DNA of 64,000 bases. It comes from Rubrobacter tropicus (lineage in GTDB: Bacteria > Actinomycetota > Rubrobacteria > Rubrobacterales > Rubrobacteraceae). The notes under the pieces are model-generated. The model saw only the letters and a list, made by a program, of their open reading frames with translations. It made no database searches and was not told where the DNA came from. Below, one piece after another: positions 4,332 to 21,187 of this stretch. The DNA is taken from contig NZ_CP045119.1 in NCBI RefSeq assembly GCF_011492945.1, forward strand, positions 3,162,001 through 3,226,000, written 5' to 3'. Position numbers and translations under genes: made by a program. Positions within the stretch are counted from its first letter, which is position 1. Each line of letters opens with the position of its first letter.

Positions 4332-6963
4332 TTGGCGGAGGCCCAAAGAAACCCGAACCTCGTCGTCGTCGGCTCGTCGGCCGGCGGGATAGAGGCGCTC
4401 TCGACGCTGGTCTCCACCCTTCCCGAGGGTTTCACCTCGCCGGTCGTAATAGCCCAGCACCTGGACCCCGCCCGCGAGAGCCGGCTGCGGGAGATCCTCG
4501 CCCGCAGGAGCAGCCTGCCCGTGCGTACCGTGGTCGACCACGACCACCTGGAGGCGGGGGTGGTTTACGTGATCCCCTCGGACCGTCACGTCAACGTAAC
4601 GCCGTCCGAGATAGACCTGCGGGTGGACACCAAGGGGCGGCCCAAGCCCTCGGTTGACATGCTCATGAGCAGTGCCGCCGAGGTCTTCGGAGAGGGCCTC
4701 GTCGCCGTGGTCCTGACCGGGATGGGCTCGGACGGGGCCGAGGGGGCAAGGGCCGTCCGCCAGGCCGGGGGAACGGTGGTCGTCCAGGACCCCGAGACCG
4801 CCGAGTTCGGCGCGATGCCGGGCTCCCTCGCACCCAACACCGTGGACATCGTCGCGGACCTCGAACGGATCGGCCCGATCCTGGGCGAGCTTCTCGCGGG
4901 CGTTCCCGTACGCGAAGAGCGGGTGCGCGAGGAAGAAGAACAATCCTTGCAGGACTTTCTCGAAGGGCTCAAGGAGCGCCACGGCGTGGACTTCACGAGC
5001 TACAAGACCTCGACCATCCTGCGGCGCCTCAAGCGGCGCATGGTCGCCACACACACGGGGACCATAGAAGACTACGCCTCCTACCTCGACGACCACCCCG
5101 AGGAGCTCCCGCAGCTCGTCAACACGCTCCTCATAAAGGTTACTCAGTTCTTCCGCGATCCCGAGCTCTTCGCACACCTGCGCGAGAAGGTGCTCCCCGC
5201 GCTCATAGAGGAGGCCGGGAGAGAGAACCGGCAGCTCAGGGTCTGGTCCGCCGGCTGCGCCACGGGCGAGGAGGCCTACACTCTAGCCATCATCCTGTCG
5301 GAGCTGCTCGGCCCGGAGGCCGCGCTCGCGGACGTGCGCATCTTCGCGACGGACATCGACGGGGCGGCCGTGGACTTCGCCCGCCGCGGGGTCTACCCGG
5401 CCGGCGCCCTCTCGGGGCTCAGCGAGGAACAGAAGGTGCGCTACTTTCTGGAAGAAGACGGGCGCTACGAGGTAAAGAAGCCGGTGCGCGGCATGATCGT
5501 CTTCGGCGAGCACGACCTGGCGCGCCGCTCGCCCTTCCCGCGCATAGACCTCGTGGTGAGCCGCAACGTCCTGATCTACTTCACCACCGAGCTGCAGCGG
5601 CGGGCCCTGGAGCTTTTCGCCTACTCTTTGCGCGACGGGGGCTGCCTGGTCCTCGGCAAGGCCGAGACGACCTCGCCCCTCTCCGAGTTCTTCGCGGCCC
5701 AGCAGGACCGCCCGCATAAGGTCTACCGCCGCAGGGGCAAACGCTTCCTGATGCCGAGCACGACCCCCACGCCGCCGCCGCGCTCCCGGCTCTCGCGCGC
5801 GGCGACGGCCGGCGGGTTCTCGGCCGATCTCAGGAACGCGGAGCCCAAAGTCCGCACCTCGGACGGGGGCCTCATAAACCGCCTGCCGGTCGGCGTGGTG
5901 GTGGTAGACCGGCGCTACGACATCCGGGACCTCAACGCCGCCGCCCGCGACCTCCTCTCCGTCCGAGGGCCCGCCATCGGGGAGGACCTGCTTCACGCCG
6001 TCCACGGGATGCCCTACGCCGAGGTGCGGGGCGCCATAGACTCGGCTTTCAGGGACGGCGTCTCTATCACGGGGGAGTTCTCCGTGGAGGACGCGACCTC
6101 GGGCGAGCCCCGCTACCTCCAGCTCGCCTGCCACCCCCACCGCGGCAAGGACAACAAGGGCCTCGCCGAGACCGTCGCCATAGTCGTCAACGACGTCACG
6201 GACATCGGACGGGAGCGGCGCGAGCTCGACGAGAGGCTTAAAAAGGCGGAGGCCGAGAGGTCGCGCCTGGAAGCACAGAACGGCCGCCTGATCGAATTCA
6301 ACCGCAGGCTGGAGGAGGCGAACGGCGAGCTGACGAACCTCAACGACGAGATGCAGGCCTCCTACGAGGACACCCTGCTCGCCGCCGAGGAGGCCCAGGC
6401 CGCCACCGAGGAGGTCGAGACCCTCAACGAGGAGTTGCAGGCGACCAACGAGGAGCTTGAGACCCTCAACGAGGAGCTCCAGGCGACCATCGAGGAGCTG
6501 AACACGACCAACGACGACCTCCAGGCCCGCACGGCCGAGCTGCAGGACCTCGCCCGCGTGCGCGAGGAGGAGCGGCGTTCCTCCGAGGCGTCGCGCCGGC
6601 GCCTGGAGGCCATCCTCTCGGCGATGAGCGACGCGGTGCTCGCCGTGGGCTCCGGGCAGAAGGTCCTCTTCAGCAACGACGTCTTCACCAGGACCTTCGG
6701 CGACGGCCAGCCGGGCGACCCCGACGGGGGCCGCAAGCTGGGTTTCGCGGTGCCGCTGACCGAGAGCGGGGGGAAGATGCCGACCGAGGAGATGCCCCAG
6801 AGGCGGGCCGCGCAGCGAGTCGTTCGACATGCGCTTCGCCGTGGCGGAGGAAGGCGGCCCGCTGCGACACTTCGAGGTCAGGGGCAGGCCCCTTGACGGC
6901 GGCGACGGCGGCGGGGTGCTCCTGATCCGGGAAGCCCGGCAGGATTCGGAGTCGCCGCGGTGA
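4332..6963 (+). CDS. CheB-CheR-PAS hybrid signalling protein, with apparent frameshift
   Basis: A multidomain sensor: CheB methylesterase (Ser16 in VVVGSSAGG, His43, GMGSDG near residue 133), CheR methyltransferase (LRRLKRRM, VTQFFRD, the SAM loop VWSAGCATGEEAYTL and SRNVLIYF), a PAS domain (about 510-630), a long coiled coil of ETLNEELQATNEE repeats, and a second PAS. Near 6811 the reading frame breaks: the original frame stops at 6896, while frame +1 continues as SESFDMRFAVAEEGG and stops at 6961-6963. A two-base CG loss within a GCGCG run would explain it. The second stop overlaps the next gene's GTG (GTGA), supporting the restored frame. TTG start after AGGGAGAG. Confidence 0.88.
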
Positions 6964-14364: not shown

Positions 14365-14898
14365 GTGGAGAGTAGCGAGACCGCGCAGAAGGCGAAGCAG
14401 CAGGGGCAGCAGTTGACCCGGCAGGCCCGGCAGCAGGCCGGGGAGCTTGCGACCCGGGGCGGCGAGCAGGTCAAGTCCCAGCTCGCGAGCCAGAAGCACG
14501 AGGCTTCGCAGAGGCTGACGCCCATACAGGTGGCGCTCAGGGAGACCGCCCAGCAGCTGCGCAAGCAGGGCCAGGCGCCGGTCGCCCAGTACGCGGACAA
14601 GGCCTCGGATCAGGTCGAGCGGGTCTCCGGCTACCTCCGGGAGACCGAGGTCGACGAGATGGTCGACGAGGCGCGCGGTTTCGCGCGCAGCAGGCCGGCC
14701 CTCTTTCTCGGCGGCGCCCTGGCGCTCGGTTTTCTCGGCGCCCGCTTCCTGAAGAGCTCCTCCCAGGAGGCCTCCAACGGCCAGCCGGTCGCGGCGCTCC
14801 CCCCCGCCGAGGCCGCCCCCCCGACGGCGAGGCGCACCCCGACGGCCGGCGGGTCCGTGGACGGGGCGGACCGTCCCGTGTCCCCCCGGGGAATCTAG
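14365..14898 (+). CDS. Gln-rich amphipathic protein with one membrane anchor
   Basis: 177 residues. Residues 1-105 are a charged, Gln/Ala-rich amphipathic helix (repeats such as TRQARQQAGELATRGGEQV) resembling LEA, apolipoprotein or YtxH-like stress proteins. One membrane helix follows (ALFLGGALALGFLGARFL, about 113-130). The tail is Pro/Ala rich. The GTG start is supported by GAGAGGAGAAAG upstream. The next gene begins nine bases after the stop with its own AGGAGG site, so they are co-transcribed. Likely coats or shapes the membrane; this is inference. Confidence 0.75.
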   Translation: MESSETAQKAKQQGQQLTRQARQQAGELATRGGEQVKSQLASQKHEASQRLTPIQVALRETAQQLRKQGQAPVAQYADKASDQVERVSGYLRETEVDEMVDEARGFARSRPALFLGGALALGFLGARFLKSSSQEASNGQPVAALPPAEAAPPTARRTPTAGGSVDGADRPVSPRGI

Positions 14899-14907
14899 GA
14901 GGCTTCG

Positions 14908-15306
14908 GTGCAGGGTAGGAACGGTAGGGACGACCGCACGCTCGGGGAGCTCTTCTCCGAGCTGGCGCGGGAGACCTCCACGCTCGTCCGCCAGGAGGTG
15001 AACCTCGCCAAGACCGAGATGGGTCAGAAGGCCTCGCGGGTCGGCAAGGACGTGGGCTTTCTGGCGGCCGGGGGCGTCTTGGCCTACGCGGGGCTGCTGG
15101 CGATCCTCGCCGGGTTGATCGTGCTGCTCGGACAGGTCATCCCCATGTGGCTCTCGGCCCTCCTGGTCGGGCTCGTGGTGGCGGCCGTCGGCTACTTCCT
15201 GATCAAGAAGGGTCTGGACGCCCTCAAGAGGGAAGACCTGGCACCGCGGCAGACGATAGAGACGCTAAAGGAGGACCAGCAATGGATCAAAGACCAGGCG
15301 AAGTAG
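14908..15306 (+). CDS. Actinobacterial holin-X family (holin superfamily III) protein
   Basis: 132 residues. A soluble N-terminal helix with TLGELFSELARETSTLVRQE is followed by two transmembrane helices (about 52-74 and 80-100) and a charged tail ending near KEDQQWIKDQAK. This matches the putative holin-X family, widespread on actinobacterial chromosomes away from phages, where it is not a lysis protein as far as known. GTG start six bases after AGGAGG. The next gene starts 25 bases inside its 3' end, indicating tight coupling. Confidence 0.82.
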   Translation: MQGRNGRDDRTLGELFSELARETSTLVRQEVNLAKTEMGQKASRVGKDVGFLAAGGVLAYAGLLAILAGLIVLLGQVIPMWLSALLVGLVVAAVGYFLIKKGLDALKREDLAPRQTIETLKEDQQWIKDQAK

Positions 15307-16238
15307 TGCGGCGGGACCCTCTCGGGGGCGGCACCCCGGGGTTCGACCCGGCCACCGACGCCTTCGATCCCGACGCGGTGAGAGACCCAGCGCTCGGCGG
15401 GGCGGACGTAGATCGGGTCGAAGTGGATCAAGTCGAGGTGGACCGGGTCGAGGTGACCAAGGTCGAGATCGAGCGCACCAGGGCCGACATGAGCGAGACG
15501 GTGGACGCCATCCAGGAGAGGCTCTCCCCGCAGAACCTCAAGGAGCAGGCGAAGGACAAGGTTAAGGAGGCAACCGTGGGTAGAGCCAGGGAAGCAAGGT
15601 CCGGCGTGGTCGAGACCGTCAGGGCCAACCCGCTGCCGGCGGCGCTGACGGGCATCGGCCTCGGCTGGCTACTGATGAGCGCGCGCCGGCAGAGCCCGCA
15701 GCCGCGCTACCGGGACGACGTCTACCGTTACCGTACCCCCACCAACGAGTACGCCCGCGAGGTCGACGAGTACCCGCTTCATGAGGGCGAAGCGGCGGAC
15801 GGCTCCTCGGCGGGCGAGTCCCTCGGGCGCGCCAGGGACAAGGTCGGGGAGACCGCCACCCAGGCCCAGGACAAGGCGCAGGACGTCGCCGGTCGTGCCC
15901 AGGACAAGGCGGGGGATCTCGGCAGCCGGGCGCGAGACGGGGCGAGCCGGCTGGGCAGCCAGGCCAGGCAGCAGGCCGGGCGGGCAGGCGGAGGGTTCCA
16001 GCGGATGCTCAACGAGAACCCCCTGACCGTCGGCGCGCTTGCCGTCGGCGCCGGCGCGGCGATAGGGCTCGCCATTCCCGAGACCTCCAAAGAGCACGAG
16101 GTCATGGGCGAGGCCCGCGACACCGTCGTGGAAAAAGCCCAGGAGAAGGCCCAGGAGGCCCAGCAGAGGGTCCAGCGGGTCGCAGAGGAGGCCCAGGGCG
16201 CGGCCCAACAAGAGGCCGAGAACCAGGGTCTGAAGTAG
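15282..16238 (+). CDS. DUF3618-type membrane protein with amphipathic repeats
   Basis: 318 residues. Near residue 43 there is a five-residue tandem repeat (DRVEV-DQVEV-DRVEV-TKVEI). Next comes the DUF3618 core, ERTRADMSETVDAIQERLSP, and a short membrane helix (about 112-128). The middle is a run of AQDKAQDVAGRAQDKAGDLG-like 11-residue amphipathic repeats as in LEA proteins, and a second hydrophobic glycine-rich segment lies near 250. DUF3618 proteins usually sit beside holin-X genes, as here. The ATG at 15282 follows AAAGGAGGACC within the previous gene. A strong terminator follows, so the operon ends here. Confidence 0.82.
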   Translation: MDQRPGEVVRRDPLGGGTPGFDPATDAFDPDAVRDPALGGADVDRVEVDQVEVDRVEVTKVEIERTRADMSETVDAIQERLSPQNLKEQAKDKVKEATVGRAREARSGVVETVRANPLPAALTGIGLGWLLMSARRQSPQPRYRDDVYRYRTPTNEYAREVDEYPLHEGEAADGSSAGESLGRARDKVGETATQAQDKAQDVAGRAQDKAGDLGSRARDGASRLGSQARQQAGRAGGGFQRMLNENPLTVGALAVGAGAAIGLAIPETSKEHEVMGEARDTVVEKAQEKAQEAQQRVQRVAEEAQGAAQQEAENQGLK

Positions 16239-16256
16239 AACGAACCCCAGGATAGC

Positions 16257-16296
16257 GAGCGGGCGCGGCCGGTTTCGGCCGCGCCCGCTCTTCTTT
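16257..16296 (+). terminator. Rho-independent terminator
   Basis: Perfect 14-bp stem GAGCGGGCGCGGCC / GGCCGCGCCCGCTC with a six-base loop and TTCTTT tail, 18 bases after the stop of the DUF3618 gene. Confidence 0.92.
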
Positions 16297-16310
16297 AGAG
16301 GGGAGGGCGG

Positions 16311-16430
16311 ATGATACGTTGGGGAAGGGGCAACCGCGGCGGCTGTTGCGTGGTGATACCCATAGGTTGCCTCACGTCGGTGGGGCTGGTGCTGCTGTTC
16401 GCGGGTCTTGCCGTCGCAAGGATGCTGTAG
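16311..16430 (+). CDS. 39-residue membrane peptide (MIR...GC type)
   Basis: Small gene directly after a terminator, with GGGGAGGG seven bases before the ATG. The peptide starts with MIRWGRGNRGGCC, continues into VVIPIGCLTSVGLVLLFAGL as one membrane helix, and ends VARML. The basic Gly-rich head gives an inside-positive orientation. It is related in layout to the peptide at 14200-14301. Three cysteines next to the membrane are notable. The gap to the next gene (16431-16514) holds that gene's leader only. Confidence 0.6.
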   Translation: MIRWGRGNRGGCCVVIPIGCLTSVGLVLLFAGLAVARML

Positions 16431-16514
16431 AGGCGTCGGACCGGGGCGGGAAGTTCCCGCCTTCTCCGAAACGGGTACGAGGTTCCATGAAGTGAGCCAA
16501 CGAGAGGAGCGCGA

Positions 16515-17069
16515 ATGACCGAAAGAGGCATAGACAGGATGGAGCAGGCGCCGGAAGAGGCCAGGCAGCAGTGGCTCGGCATGCTGCAAACGCTCGCCGA
16601 GCAGATCCAACGCCAGCAGCAGACCTCGCAGCAGATGACCCAGGAGATGATGGAGACCTACATGCAACTCCTGCAAACCCCGGGCTCCTACCTCTCCGGC
16701 CAGGCCGAGCAGCAGCAACAGACCCTCCAGCAGACGGCCCAGCAGTGGATGGAGCAGGCCCAGCAGCAACGGCAGACCTTCCAGCAGCAGGCCCAGCAAC
16801 AGCAGCAGGCCTTCCAGCAGATGACCCAGGAGGTGATGAGCACCTACGCGCAGCTCTTCAACATCCCCCTCTCCTACGCCCAGAAGGGCCTGCGGGACAC
16901 GGGGTTCCCGATCCAAAACTACGACGACCTGAACGCGGACGATATCATCAGGCGTACCTCCGGCCTCTCCGCCGAAGAGCTTCGGGTGGTCCGCGACTAC
17001 GAGGAGCGCAACAAGAACCGCGAGACGGTGCTGGAGCAGCTCGACCGCAGGATAAGGTCGGGTTCCTAA
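16515..17069 (+). CDS. Gln/Met-rich phasin-like coiled-coil protein
   Basis: 184 residues. Residues 25-120 are a Gln-rich helix containing two related units, QQMTQEMMETYMQLLQTPGS and QQMTQEVMSTYAQLFNIPLS, separated by long glutamine runs. The C-terminal 50 residues (YDDLNADDIIRRTSGLSAEE then VRDYEERNKNRETVLEQLDR) form a compact domain that recurs at the end of the protein at 20099-20524. The layout of an amphipathic helix plus small domain resembles phasin or granule-associated proteins. The start follows GAGAGGAGCGCG. A strong palindrome follows the gene. Function unknown. Confidence 0.75.
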   Translation: MTERGIDRMEQAPEEARQQWLGMLQTLAEQIQRQQQTSQQMTQEMMETYMQLLQTPGSYLSGQAEQQQQTLQQTAQQWMEQAQQQRQTFQQQAQQQQQAFQQMTQEVMSTYAQLFNIPLSYAQKGLRDTGFPIQNYDDLNADDIIRRTSGLSAEELRVVRDYEERNKNRETVLEQLDRRIRSGS

Positions 17070-17114
17070 CCGGCCGGTCCCGCAGGGGACCCGAAGAAGG
17101 TGACCACGCGCGAA

Positions 17115-17154
17115 GGGAGCCGGCGCGGGGATCGCGATCCCCGCGCCGGCTCCC
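17115..17154 (+). terminator. Long perfect palindrome, possible terminator
   Basis: A 40-bp perfect palindrome with arms reading GGGAGCCGGCGCGGGG and its complement around ATCGCGAT. It lies 46 bases after the Gln-rich gene. The T-tract is poor (GCGGTCC follows), so it is either a weak terminator or a binding or structural site. Confidence 0.6.
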
Positions 17155-17256
17155 GCGGTCCGGGCCGTCTTACGGATGGCGTAAAAGAGCGACCTTCGGG
17201 TACGTGCCCGTTGGCCGGGCCCTCGAAGGGCACGACTACCGATTGAGAGGCGACCC

Positions 17257-17934
17257 ATGGACGAGACGAACCTGAACCAGTTCAAAGAGGTGACCCCCAG
17301 CGGCACCTTCACCCTGCAGAACTCGTCGCTGCTCAAGGTCCGGCTGGACGGGAACTCCGTGCAGGCGAAGCTGGGCTCGATGGTCGCCTACCAGGGCGGG
17401 GTGCGCTTCGACCACAAGGGCGGGGGCCTCGGTCGGTTCTTCAAGAAGGCCCTCACAGGTGAAGGCGTCGACCTGATGGTCGCCGGGGGGACCGGGGACC
17501 TCTTTCTGGCGCACAACGCCCGCAAGATCATGATCCTCGAGCTCGAAGGCGAGACGATGACGGTCAACGGGGACAATATCCTCGCGTTCGAGGAGGGCGT
17601 GGACTGGGACACCGTCCCGCTGGCGGGGGCCGGGAGGCTCGCCGGCGGGGCGTTCAACGTGGTGCTGCAAGGCACCGGCAAGGTGGCCGTCACGGCCCAG
17701 GGAGATCCGGTCCTGCTCGACACGAGCACCCCCACCTCCGCGGACCCCGACTCGGCCATAGCGTGGAGCGGCGGGGTGCACACCCGCGTCAAGAGCGACG
17801 TCTCCTTCAACACCTTCCTCGGGCGCGACTCGGGAGAGACGTTCCAGATCGCCTTCGAGGGCCCTGGCTGGGTCCTGATACAGCCCTCCGAAGGCCCCAC
17901 GGTGCCCCCGCACACCCACGCCAGGCAGGGCTGA
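17257..17934 (+). CDS. AIM24 family protein
   Basis: 225 residues, a beta-rich protein of the AIM24/TIGR00266 family. The sequence alternates short strands with glycine turns (for example SMVAYQGGVRF, DLMVAGGTGDLFLAHNA and NVVLQGTGKVAVTAQGDP), as expected for its double-stranded beta-helix-like fold. The mitochondrial namesake is involved in membrane organisation; bacterial members are uncharacterised. The ATG follows GAGAGGCGACCC. It is 36 bases upstream of the lipid kinase gene and probably co-transcribed. The family assignment is secure, the role is not. Confidence 0.85.
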   Translation: MDETNLNQFKEVTPSGTFTLQNSSLLKVRLDGNSVQAKLGSMVAYQGGVRFDHKGGGLGRFFKKALTGEGVDLMVAGGTGDLFLAHNARKIMILELEGETMTVNGDNILAFEEGVDWDTVPLAGAGRLAGGAFNVVLQGTGKVAVTAQGDPVLLDTSTPTSADPDSAIAWSGGVHTRVKSDVSFNTFLGRDSGETFQIAFEGPGWVLIQPSEGPTVPPHTHARQG

Positions 17935-17970
17935 CCCGTCGCTTCGCCGGAGGGCCGCGCCGGAGCAGAG

Positions 17971-18894
17971 ATGAAAAAAACACGCGACACCACCACGGCG
18001 GCCGTCATCATCGGAAACCCCAACTCGGGTAGCGCGGGCGACGAGGGCTATCTCGAGGGTTTCGCCGACACCCTGCGCGCCGGCGGCCTCACGGTCGAGG
18101 TGCTGAACACGGAGCGCCCGGACCACGCCACCGAGCTCGCCGCCGCGGCCGGCGACCGACTCGTGATCGCCGCCGCGGCCGGCGACCGACTCGTGATCGC
18201 CGCCGGGGGCGACGGGACGGTGAACGAGGTCCTGAACGGCCTCTCGGCGGGCGCCACTTTGGGCATCCTGCCGCTCGGCACGGCGAACGTGCTCGCGCGG
18301 GAGCTCGGGCTGCCGCTGGAGCCGCAGGGGGCCTGCGAGAGGATCCTGACCGGCTCGGCCTCCCGGATGGACGTCGGGGTGGCGACGGACGACGACGGGG
18401 CCGAGCGACGCTTCGCCTGCATGGCCGGCATCGGCTTCGACGCCGACGTCGTGCGCGAGGTGGGCCCGCGCCTGAAACGCTACCTCAGGTCGCTCGCCTT
18501 CCCGCTCGTCGCGCTGAAGGTGTTCTTCCGGGGCGACAGGCCCCAACTGCACATCAAGGACGGCGACACCACCCACGTGGTCCAGTACGCCGTCGTCGCC
18601 AACGGCCAGTACTACGGGGGAGACTTCGAAACGGCGGAGGACGCCTCGCTGAGGAGCGGGGAACTCCAGGTCGTCCTCGTCGAGAAGGTGGGGCACCTGA
18701 TGCGCCCCGACGTCCTGGCCCACGTACTGGCCAAGAAGCCCCTGGACCGCACCATGAAGTCGTTCGCCTCGGGCCGGGTCGTGGCCGAGTCCCCCTCCGG
18801 TGGACGGGTCCCGGTGCAGATAGACGGCGAAGTCTGGGGCCGCCTGCCCATGTCCTTCCGGATCGAACCGGCCGCCGTGGCCGTGATCCGTTAG
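17971..18894 (+). CDS. Diacylglycerol/lipid kinase (DagK/YegS family)
   Basis: 307 residues. Lipid kinases of this fold phosphorylate diacylglycerol or related lipids with ATP. Visible motifs are IIGNPNSGSAG at the N-terminus, the catalytic GGDGTVNEVLNGL (about residue 77) and PLGTANVLARELGLP. A conserved GIGFDADVV follows near residue 155. Directly before GGDGT there is an exact 30-bp tandem duplication (18139-18198) that repeats ten residues, AAAAGDRLVI, and would lengthen the strand-loop leading to the active site. The reading frame is kept. Follows AIM24 in the membrane-stress group. Confidence 0.88.
   Translation: MKKTRDTTTAAVIIGNPNSGSAGDEGYLEGFADTLRAGGLTVEVLNTERPDHATELAAAAGDRLVIAAAAGDRLVIAAGGDGTVNEVLNGLSAGATLGILPLGTANVLARELGLPLEPQGACERILTGSASRMDVGVATDDDGAERRFACMAGIGFDADVVREVGPRLKRYLRSLAFPLVALKVFFRGDRPQLHIKDGDTTHVVQYAVVANGQYYGGDFETAEDASLRSGELQVVLVEKVGHLMRPDVLAHVLAKKPLDRTMKSFASGRVVAESPSGGRVPVQIDGEVWGRLPMSFRIEPAAVAVIR
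18139..18198 (+). repeat. Exact 30-bp tandem duplication inside the lipid kinase gene
   Basis: Two identical 30-bp units, 18139-18168 and 18169-18198, each beginning GCCGCCGCGG and ending CTCGTGATC. A third, partial copy of the first six bases follows. The frame is preserved. Confidence 0.95.
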
Positions 18895-18937
18895 AGCAGT
18901 CGCCCCGGCGAAGAGCGCCCAGCTTGGACGACGCTGG

Positions 18938-19019
18938 ACACATCAAGACACATAAGTTACTAATATACGGTACACTACGAGCACGCTAGACACGCTTGCA
19001 CGCACGGTTGCACGCACGG
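18938..19019 (+). promoter_or_regulatory. Probable promoter and 12-bp tandem repeat upstream of the Crp/Fnr gene
   Basis: Locally AT-rich. TACACT at 18971-18976 or TATACG at 18964-18969 may be the -10. Two ACACAT(C/A)A-type direct repeats lie upstream (about 18938-18954), and TTGCACGCACGG occurs twice in tandem (18996-19007 and 19008-19019). The latter sits in the leader and could be an operator for autoregulation. Confidence 0.4.
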
Positions 19020-19088
19020 GTCGATTCCCTTCCCCGGCACGGGGAGGCGCTCGGGTTGCGTTTCTGCAGAAGGAGAGAGACGGCGAAG

Positions 19089-19790
19089 ATGGCGATGTCG
19101 CAGGAAGAGCAGGTACGTCTGCTCTCGATGGTGGACATCCTCGAGCCGCTTTCGCCCGAAGAGTTGGAAGAGTTGGCCCGACGAGCACCGGACACATACC
19201 TCGACGAGGGAGAGATCCTCTACACCCCCCAGGAGACGGGCGAGAAGCTGTTCATACTCAAGAAGGGCAGGGTGCAAGTCTACGAGATGAACCCCGAAGG
19301 GTCGGAGATCACGCTCTCCGTGGTGGAGAGCGGGGCCGTGTTCGGGGAGATGACCCTGACCGGCCAGAGCTTCCGGGGGGTGTACGTCAGGGCGCTCGCG
19401 CCCTCGTACGTGTGTTCGCTCGGGTTGCCGGACTTCGAGGGCCTGGTGATGAGGAACCCGCAGGTAGGCCTGAGGCTCGTGAGGGTGCTCGCCGGGAGGC
19501 TGCGCCAGTCCGAGCTTCGCATGGCGGACCTAGTCCACAAAGAAGTCCCCGCCCGCCTCGCCACCCTGATCCTGACGCTCGTGGAGAGCGAGGGGCTGGT
19601 AAGCGGCGAGAGCTACAGGATAGCCACCCGCTACACCCACGAGCAGCTCGGCACCATGATCGGGGCGAAGCGCGTGGCGGTGAGCCGGGCCTTCTCCCAC
19701 CTCAAGGAAGCCAGGGCCGTCGAGTTCAAGAACCGCTACATCCACATCACCGACATGGAAAAGCTCCGGGAGGTCTCCACGGCCGGCTAG
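19089..19790 (+). CDS. Crp/Fnr-family transcription regulator
   Basis: 233 residues. The N-terminal cyclic-nucleotide-like beta-roll spans about 20-135 (GEKLFILKKGRVQVYEMN, GAVFGEMTL) and a dimer helix is followed by a winged helix (YTHEQLGTMIGAKRVAVSRA, about 185-205). The usual phosphate-binding Arg-Ser/Thr pair after FGE is not obvious, and there is no Fnr-type cysteine cluster, so the ligand is unknown. A start at 19089 is preferred over an upstream in-frame TTG because AAGGAGAG lies just before it. A CRP-like palindrome lies 100 bases downstream of the stop. Probably regulates neighbouring stress genes. Confidence 0.9.
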   Translation: MAMSQEEQVRLLSMVDILEPLSPEELEELARRAPDTYLDEGEILYTPQETGEKLFILKKGRVQVYEMNPEGSEITLSVVESGAVFGEMTLTGQSFRGVYVRALAPSYVCSLGLPDFEGLVMRNPQVGLRLVRVLAGRLRQSELRMADLVHKEVPARLATLILTLVESEGLVSGESYRIATRYTHEQLGTMIGAKRVAVSRAFSHLKEARAVEFKNRYIHITDMEKLREVSTAG

Positions 19791-19889
19791 AGGGCCGCTA
19801 GCTCCACCCTCTGGCCTCGCGCAAGACGGGACGCCTGCCCGCCGGCGGGGGCTCACCCGGGCGAAAACTACCGAACTCGCCAACGTAAG

Positions 19890-19940
19890 TGTGTTTTGTA
19901 TCACAGGATACGGCGATCTCGTCCCCCCTATATATTGTGG
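19890..19940 (+). promoter_or_regulatory. CRP/FNR-type operator with downstream -10 box
   Basis: TGTGTTTTGTATCACA at 19890-19905 matches the TGTGA-N6-TCACA consensus in nine of ten positions. A TATATT hexamer follows at 19931-19936. If that is the -10, the operator is centred about 45 bases before the start point, near the class II activator position. It would be the promoter of the gene at 20099 and lies right after a Crp/Fnr gene. Confidence 0.55.
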
Positions 19941-19943
19941 TGG

Positions 19944-20098
19944 CGGGTGAAAAGTGACGCCCATCAAGAGATGGGCTGGGAAGGGGAAACTCAACCTTCG
20001 GGTCGGCGCTTTGCCGTGCCGGGCCCCTGCCACGGCGGGGCCCGACCCGGGGGTGGTTCCCGGCGGAAAGCATGCAAACTCGGGAGTCTGGAGGTCCG
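19944..20098 (+). other. Long GC-rich leader with several hairpins
   Basis: About 155 bases between the presumed start point and the GTG at 20099 contain no convincing reading frame. It holds CGGGCCCC-(9)-GGGGCCCG at 20020-20044 and other potential stems. I compared it mentally with cobalamin, c-di-AMP and c-di-GMP riboswitches and saw no match. It could be a structured 5' UTR. Confidence 0.3.
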
Positions 20099-20524
20099 GT
20101 GATCCGCAACGAGGCAAGACGCGACCCCTACAGAACGCTCGTGGAGGCGGCCATCAAGGTCCAGGAACGGAACGTGAGGGTCACCGTGGACATGCTCGAC
20201 ATGCTAACCGGTCAGGCCGGGGCGACCCGCGCCTTCCTGGAGCACTTGAGGGAGCAACAGGAGGCCTTCTGGGCGCTGGCCGAGGGATCGTTCAAGACCT
20301 GCCTGGGCCTCCCCCACGACGGGGCCCCGGAAGGAGAAGCCCCCTCCACCGGCCACCGTGATTCGGGGTTGCCCGTGGAGGACTTCGACCGTCTCGGCGT
20401 CGAGGAGCTGGGCCGCAAGCTGGAGGGGCTCTGCGCGCGGGACGTCGAGAGGCTCAAAGACCACGAGAGGCGCACGGGGAACCGCCGCGCCGTGATGGAG
20501 CGCCTGGACCGCGCGCTCGTCTAG
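20099..20524 (+). CDS. Helical protein sharing a C-terminal domain with the Gln-rich protein
   Basis: 141 residues. The N-terminal helical half (about 5-65, ARRDPYRTLVEAAIKVQERN) is followed by a variable linker. The C-terminal 48 residues (FDRLGVEELGRKLEGLCARD and HERRTGNRRAVMERLDRAL) align with the end of the product at 16515-17069: both read (Y/F)D-x-L near the start, a GL(S/C)A turn and a final NR-x-x-V-x-x-x-LDR. The GTG start is supported by GGAGG four bases upstream. A CRP-like promoter precedes it. Phasin-like role is a guess from layout. Confidence 0.65.
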   Translation: MIRNEARRDPYRTLVEAAIKVQERNVRVTVDMLDMLTGQAGATRAFLEHLREQQEAFWALAEGSFKTCLGLPHDGAPEGEAPSTGHRDSGLPVEDFDRLGVEELGRKLEGLCARDVERLKDHERRTGNRRAVMERLDRALV

Positions 20525-20558: not shown

Positions 20559-20773
20559 ATGCGTTCGGATGAGGCCGTGGTGGGCAAGAAGGTGCGGGTA
20601 CTTCCTCAACACCGGCGGGAACAGTTTCGGGGGCATCGGGCACGATCCGTCAAAGGTACGGCGCCCCGGATTACCTGGCCCTGGACGTGGAGTTCGGGGA
20701 CGGGAGATCCGTGCTCTTCTGGCACTACGAACTCGAGGAGATGAATGACGCGTCGACCCTCGACCGCCGCTAG
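20559..20773 (+). pseudogene. Small conserved protein gene broken by a one-base frameshift
   Basis: The N-terminal part reads MRSDEAVVGKKVRVLPQHRR from 20559; then, at the G run 20629-20633, the frame must slip by one missing base to continue as GTIRQRYGAPDYLALDVEFG and end at TAG 20771-20773. The restored 71-residue product has the beta-rich pattern of a small actinobacterial family with a VG-x-x-VRV opening and a LFW...ELEE ending. The ATG follows AAAGGAGAGG. Homopolymer position suggests either a sequence error or a very recent mutation. Confidence 0.65.
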
Positions 20774-20848
20774 CGGCAGGGTCTCGGCCAGGGGAGGGGG
20801 TCCCGAACGCGGGCCCGCGTCTCCGACAAGCGAGGAGAGGTTCGTATC

Positions 20849-21187
20849 GTGTACTGGTTGATAGTGGCGCGGGAAGGCTTCCGCATGCGCGTGTGCACCG
20901 TCCGGGGCGAGGACGCTATGCCGGTCTTCAGCCGGGAGGGAGATGCCGCCTCGTTTCTGCGGGTCGCGGGCCTGGAGGACGGTTGGTGGGCCAGGGAGAC
21001 CAGCCTCGGCGAGCTCGTCTCCCTGCTTCTGGGTCCCTACGCGGGCGTCTCGAGGATCTTGCTCGACCCCCCAGCCGGGGACGCCGGACCGCCGGAAGGC
21101 GCCGCGGGCGTGGAGCGTAGGGCTTTCGTGGATCACCTGATGCGGGACTCCCGGGCCGGTGCGGCGGAGGTGGGCGCGGGCCGCTAA
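20849..21187 (+). CDS. Hypothetical protein, second member of the small paralogue family
   Basis: 112 residues. Opens YWLIVAREGFRMRV, continues with MPVFSREGDAASFLRVAGLE and a later SRILLDPPAGD; this order of elements matches the products at 1315-1692 and 35051-35413. The C-terminus is a charged helix. The GTG start has GAGGAGAGG about ten bases upstream. No catalytic or metal motif is evident. It closes the membrane-stress region before lutABC. Confidence 0.7.
   Translation: MYWLIVAREGFRMRVCTVRGEDAMPVFSREGDAASFLRVAGLEDGWWARETSLGELVSLLLGPYAGVSRILLDPPAGDAGPPEGAAGVERRAFVDHLMRDSRAGAAEVGAGR

Follow-up and report, generated by a model that had tools for sequence, protein, structure and literature searches.

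The window analysed here, a stretch of 64,000 nucleotides of Rubrobacter tropicus (contig NZ_CP045119.1, positions 3,162,001 to 3,226,000 of the forward strand), contains two genes, at 16515 and 20072, whose helical products end in a common domain of about 50 residues. This domain is modular and occurs more widely than the sequence of the window alone could show. It appears to be a reusable module that caps many storage-granule-like proteins across the phylum and that is found also in viruses of haloarchaea. We propose, with a probability of roughly 0.55, that the two window products are phasin-like coats of storage granules, most likely of polyhydroxyalkanoate (PHA), and that their tail domain docks a shared protein partner.

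Two products of the window share a C-terminal domain

The domain is present seven times in the Rubrobacter genome G000 (4.58 Mb), including the two copies in the window and those at the loci L002, L003, L004, L005, and L007. The features of the two window genes are as follows.

16515..17069, + strand: phasin-like gene of subfamily A; open reading frame (ORF) of 184 residues with a glutamine-rich helical N-terminal part and the C-terminal domain
16548..16859, + strand: pair of long helices predicted in the 16515 product (residues 12-115), from the structure model and the composition
16899..17066, + strand: three-helix domain at the C-terminus of the 16515 product (residues 129-184), from sequence comparison, the structure model, and PHROG 22690 (E 1.5e-4)
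20072..20524, + strand: phasin-like gene of subfamily B; ORF of 150 residues, whose start may be the GTG at 20099
20363..20521, + strand: C-terminal domain of the 20072 product, from sequence comparison with the ends of the 16515, L005, and L007 products

A preliminary description of this DNA, which placed the start of the second gene at 20099, an in-frame GTG inside the ORF 20072-20524, had claimed that the two products share an end of about 50 residues. The motifs on which this claim was built are present as pairs in the 16515 and 20072 products (NYDDLN/DFDRLG, GLSA/GLCA, and NRETVLEQLDR/NRRAVMERLDR), and the two ends alone give a Smith-Waterman score of 110 against 25±5 for shuffled sequences, with 0 of 20,000 shuffles reaching 110. 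A profile search, named beforehand as a possible refutation, found a significant relation between the two ends, and the claim stands. In a single BLASTP comparison the proteins are identical at 28 of 98 positions (E 5e-17), and when all six frames of the genome are searched with the 16515 end, the 20072 end is retrieved at E 3.1e-8.

Five orthologues of 16515, 74-89% identical, occur in other contigs, labelled Rubrobacteraceae (2), Rubrobacter sp., "Actinobacteria bacterium", and Solirubrobacterales. The idea that the two window genes form a conserved pair is not supported: contig L101 carries a 16515 orthologue along with DAGK (diacylglycerol kinase) and lutA-like genes, and no 20072-like gene was found there.

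Subfamilies and N-terminal partners

The copies of G000 fall into two domain subfamilies. Identity between domains is 44-56% in the subfamily of 16515, with L002, L003, and L004, and 52-62% in that of 20072, with L005 and L007, whereas it is 27-40% across the two. The 20072 domain itself is 52-54% identical to the L005 and L007 domains and 35% identical to that of 16515.

The N-terminal parts had been described as different, and their direct similarity is indeed weak: when the N-terminal halves of 16515 and 20072 are compared, 93 of 5000 shuffles reach the observed score, and hhalign gives E 0.015. Nevertheless, both are tied through paralogues to one helical family. The 20072-type N-terminus matches a Rubrobacteraceae set, C, at E 1e-17 over 90 columns, and the 16515-type N-terminus, in which glutamine makes up 32% of the residues, matches it at E 2e-6 through the 36 residues that immediately precede the domain. 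These N-terminal sets, of A, B, and C type, are small alignments chosen by hand. We count the window N-termini as related because both connect to helical set C. The two window products are thus diverged paralogues in two domain subfamilies, with N-termini that are versions of one phasin-like helical region.

The exception among the seven copies is L004, which has a DUF5872-like N-terminal part. More generally, the N-terminal partners of the domain comprise phasin-like helices, DUF5872-like proteins (E 1.7e-5, just short of the cut-off), DUF892 ferritin-like proteins (E 2.3e-12), and others, one of them with a weak match to a PHA-granule model (TIGR01837, E 4.8e-4, below cut-off). Since the domain is present without the window-type N-termini, namely with DUF892 and DUF5872, in Rv1109c, in haloviral proteins, and in tandem pairs, it moves as a unit. 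The suggestion of a small domain attached to different helices is therefore right as to the domain, which is self-contained and has several N-terminal partners, but the two window N-termini are not independent examples of it.

Distribution in the family, class, and phylum

We searched other genomes with profile A1, built from the seven copies of G000, and with a wider profile, A6. With A1, 20 of the 31 genomes searched as relatives have the domain, among them all 19 that belong to the same family, and so do 109 of 396 genomes sampled from the phylum. With A6, matches appear in 38 of 39 genomes of the class and in 22 of the 22 of good quality. In the six-frame search of G000 with the 16515 end, an eighth match (E 0.8) was discarded, since its frame runs opposite a UvrA-like gene.

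Anatomy and predicted fold of the domain

We collected 88 domain sequences, 82 of them non-haloarchaeal; identical sequences and loci longer than 6,500 bases, except L114-L117, are omitted from this set. Within 30 diverse copies, the E of the YE motif and the R of the NR motif are invariant and the opening Y almost invariant. The domain ends at most 12 residues from the C-terminus in 75 of the 82 actinobacterial copies, and five of the seven copies located elsewhere are the first of a tandem pair.

AlphaFold2, given ten sequences as input, predicts the domain piece of 16515 as three helices (piece residues 13-20, 25-38, and 42-54) with a mean pLDDT (predicted local distance difference test) of 87.4. 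The model of the full 16515 product (mean pLDDT 61.5) has long helices at residues 12-54 and 63-115, followed by the same three short ones. A Foldseek search of the PDB for solved relatives of the fold gave no match under E 2.9. The best VIA-align match, SepB of AND-1 (Z 7.5, root-mean-square deviation 2.3 over 55 residues), is in the range of common helical arrangements.

Annotating the tail with Pfam and NCBIfam gave no domain model; in the copy of Pfam used, the domain is covered by no model. DUF8129 is perhaps a newer number for the domain; a literature search for it gave no paper.

The nearest named relative is a lipid-droplet family

The only NCBIfam model that recurrently covers the domain is NF033649 (LipDrop_Rv1109c), whose C-terminus is the nearest named relative of the domain. 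The C-terminal part of this model matches six of the seven copies of G000 (E 2e-4 to 0.16) and the copies of two relatives (E 4e-7 and 6e-7). Conversely, the seven-row profile gives a C-terminal match in 20 of 21 full NF033649 members (E 1e-6 to 0.18), and the widened profile, which was partly built from these members, matches them at E 1e-8 to 1e-14. In the phylum sample, 104 of 396 genomes have an NF033649 match, 21 of them over the cut-off; Haloferax volcanii, taken as a control genome, also has a match, below the cut-off.

The window proteins are nevertheless not members of this family. They score 15.2 and 12.9 bits against a cut-off of 110, their N-terminal part is unlike that of the model, and no match in G000 is over the cut-off. 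Mycobacterial lipid droplets contain triacylglycerol. We take BCG1169c to be the same protein as Rv1109c. In the available part of a review (PMC6333902), BCG1169c is listed among the proteins that were co-isolated with M. bovis BCG lipid inclusions, and PMC10699116 makes no mention of Rv1109c or BCG1169.

The domain in haloarchaeal viruses and a plasmid

A tblastn search finds the domain in five phage records (E 2e-4 to 3e-3), all of them Halobacterium myoviruses and of two kinds, PhiH and ChaoS9. One Halobaculum plasmid also has it, beside head-tail genes; on this plasmid, two adjacent genes (L116:3932-4531 and 4532-5197) each bear the domain. When profile A1 is run against a set of just three sequences, from the viruses and the plasmid, E ranges from 5e-17 to 3e-12, with 3e-14 and 3e-12 for the viral proteins.

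In the viral form, which corresponds to phrog_22690 of haloarchaeal myoviruses (PhiH1_065, ChaoS9_065, and PhiCh1 ORF15), the domain is the N-terminal half of a protein of 93-95 residues, encoded between head-closure and neck genes; the gene is given as uncharacterised in the accessible text of the genome papers (PMC6471424, PMC6210493). PHROG 22690 matches the 16515 product (E 1.5e-4, 48 residues), with residues 133-180 of 184 aligned to positions 2-49 of 93, and does not match the 20072 product. The two-part viral architecture is thus absent from 16515: the domain is C-terminal in the window proteins, whereas in the viral protein it is N-terminal with another short part behind it.

In a viral fold library, the best match of the domain is a protein of 140 residues from HSTV-2 (E 0.12, probability 1.00, TM 0.82). 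In the first 30 kb of the HSTV-2 sequence the domain profile gives no match, and the fold match, without sequence backing in that stretch, is kept as a lead. A search of IMG/VR with the actinobacterial profile gave 132 pattern matches, none of which was confirmed.

The viral and actinobacterial copies together raise the tentative and rather doubtful possibility of one undescribed docking or adaptor domain, which would join actinobacterial granule coats and haloviral head-neck proteins to a partner surface of the same general kind.

Granule coats as the preferred reading

According to the available text of PMC8146576, PHA can make up as much as 50% of the dry mass of Rubrobacter, which has class I and class III synthases; in that text phasins are mentioned once, in general terms, and no Rubrobacter phasin is named. 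Four PhaC_N matches occur in G000, one of them strong and the other three weaker, and one of the four lies 2 kb from the domain copy L007. Within the family, the domain is found in 23 of 23 genomes and PhaC_N, at E 1e-5, in 22 of the 23. We consider granule coating the best reading for these proteins because of the presence of PhaC_N in the family, the helical N-termini, and the link to the lipid-droplet family. The N-terminal helices would coat storage granules, in this organism most likely of PHA, the C-terminal 50-residue three-helix domain would point outward, and this outward tail would dock one protein partner common to the paralogues. We infer granule binding from the helices, the relation to NF033649, and the PHA biology of Rubrobacter; PHA as the cargo and docking by the domain are likewise what we infer.

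The window proteins resemble the known phasins (PF09361 Phasin_2, TIGR01837 PHA_granule_1, and PhaE/PhaR) in their long helical N-terminal part and their PHA-making host, and show sub-threshold matches to phasin profiles, at E 0.05 for L002 with PF09361 and at E 0.065 for 16515 with TIGR01834. These models differ in that their matches do not reach the C-terminal domain.

Several observations weigh against the proposal. No known phasin profile (PF09361, TIGR01837, TIGR01834) is over the cut-off in the window proteins and the relatives scanned. Close pairs of domain and PhaC are rare, and among the matches listed, which for the domain are the best ones, they occur in two genomes (at about 2 kb in G000 and about 6 kb in G006). 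Outside the family, 12 of 33 genomes with PhaC have the domain versus 74 of 340 others (Fisher p 0.08), and PhaC_N is present in just 12 of the 86 domain carriers; these co-occurrence and pair counts were tallied by hand from the phylum listings. The domain is therefore not tied to PHA, and linkage to a PHA synthase as a general rule was rejected on the counts for the phylum. Finally, the DUF892 ferritin-like, DUF5872-like, and halovirus carriers show that the domain is more than a granule part.

The charge of the domain bears on what it might contact. It is near zero or acidic, with a mean of -1.6 in 82 copies, which fits contact with a protein better than contact with a nucleic acid; in haloarchaeal copies it is -2 to -11, perhaps as an adaptation to salt. 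A DNA-binding tail that would tie granules to the nucleoid, on the model of MLDS, which links Rhodococcus lipid droplets to DNA (available text of PMC5504291), is thus unlikely. Apart from this precedent, the domain shows a weak similarity to the DNA-binding Maf region (E 0.0036 against the PDB with the 7-row profile; Pfam bZIP_Maf is matched by 5 of 30 members, down to E 5e-4) and to SAP, which 2 of the 30 members match, at E 0.028 or above. However, the Maf match drops to E 0.12 with the wider, 30-row profile, and bZIP_Maf on the 20072 product gives 17.1 bits against a Pfam gathering threshold of 22; homology to Maf was rejected.

Another reading reverses the roles of the two parts, such that the domain itself anchors to the granule or lipid and the N-terminal helices merely oligomerise. 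This would agree with the fact that the domain, and not the N-terminus, is what these proteins share with the mycobacterial lipid-droplet family, but it seems quite improbable, as the domain sequences carry many charges and are not hydrophobic, and a lipid or polymer surface would be unexpected for the ferritin-like, DUF5872-like, and haloviral head-neck carriers. Plain paralogy, with two diverged members of one family whose tail has no separate meaning, would account for the relation of the N-termini through set C and for the two domain subfamilies with their lower identity between than within. It does not account for the occurrence of the domain without those N-termini, and we find it an unlikely explanation for the tail.

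Neighbouring genes

The following gene lies next to one of the two phasin-like genes.

20849..21187, + strand: small gene of the unnamed "YWLI" family, immediately 3' of 20072, the window gene of subfamily B

The YWLI family has 10 copies in G000 at E<=1e-4, and its protein has no Pfam match at E 0.1. A YWLI gene is located 3' on the same strand of all three subfamily B genes of G000, with one gene intervening at L007, and likewise beside one B gene in the relative G013 (L122); L127, the fifth B gene, sits where its contig stops and is outside this comparison. For five subfamily A-type genes, no same-strand YWLI gene is present within the stretch read, although L123 has one about 1 kb off on the other strand. 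YWLI genes are also found near two PhaC genes. Between 20072 and its YWLI neighbour, the letters at 20560-20775 (+) resemble a short gene with two frame changes, which looks either broken or affected by sequence errors.

In the stretch 14365-17934 (+) there is an upstream run of helical genes, with a weak YtxH-like match, a member of the Holin-X family (PF07332, E 4e-33), and then another helical ORF. An AIM24 gene (PF01987) at 17257-17934 (+) separates the 16515 gene from a diacylglycerol-kinase-like gene at 17971-18894, which contains a 30-bp in-frame tandem repeat (AAAGDRLVI twice, about 18139-18203, +) just before the GGDGT motif.

Elsewhere in G000, a PHA synthase partner subunit (L099:16986-18020, - strand; G000:C1:986988-988019) adjoins a class III-type PhaC. 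It has a PhaR match (E 7e-17), and its C-terminus matches, at E 1e-8, the peripheral-subunit-binding region of dihydrolipoyl acyltransferases; in many genomes of the family both parts are covered by matches. The identification of PhaE in Rubrobacter is termed problematic in the available text of PMC8146576.

Implications

The granule coat of Rubrobacter is unnamed in the accessible part of PMC8146576 despite the large PHA stores of the organism, and the seven domain carriers of a single genome provide a candidate granule-coat family for it. Through the tail domain, these candidates are linked with a lipid-droplet protein of mycobacteria and with a gene of haloviruses. If the adaptor possibility were true, such a domain would span bacteria, archaea, and viruses, as a plug between a helical or structural protein and its partner. 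Defining the domain would aid annotation in the 109 of 396 sampled genomes of the phylum that carry it, and would turn its binding partner into a direct experimental question.

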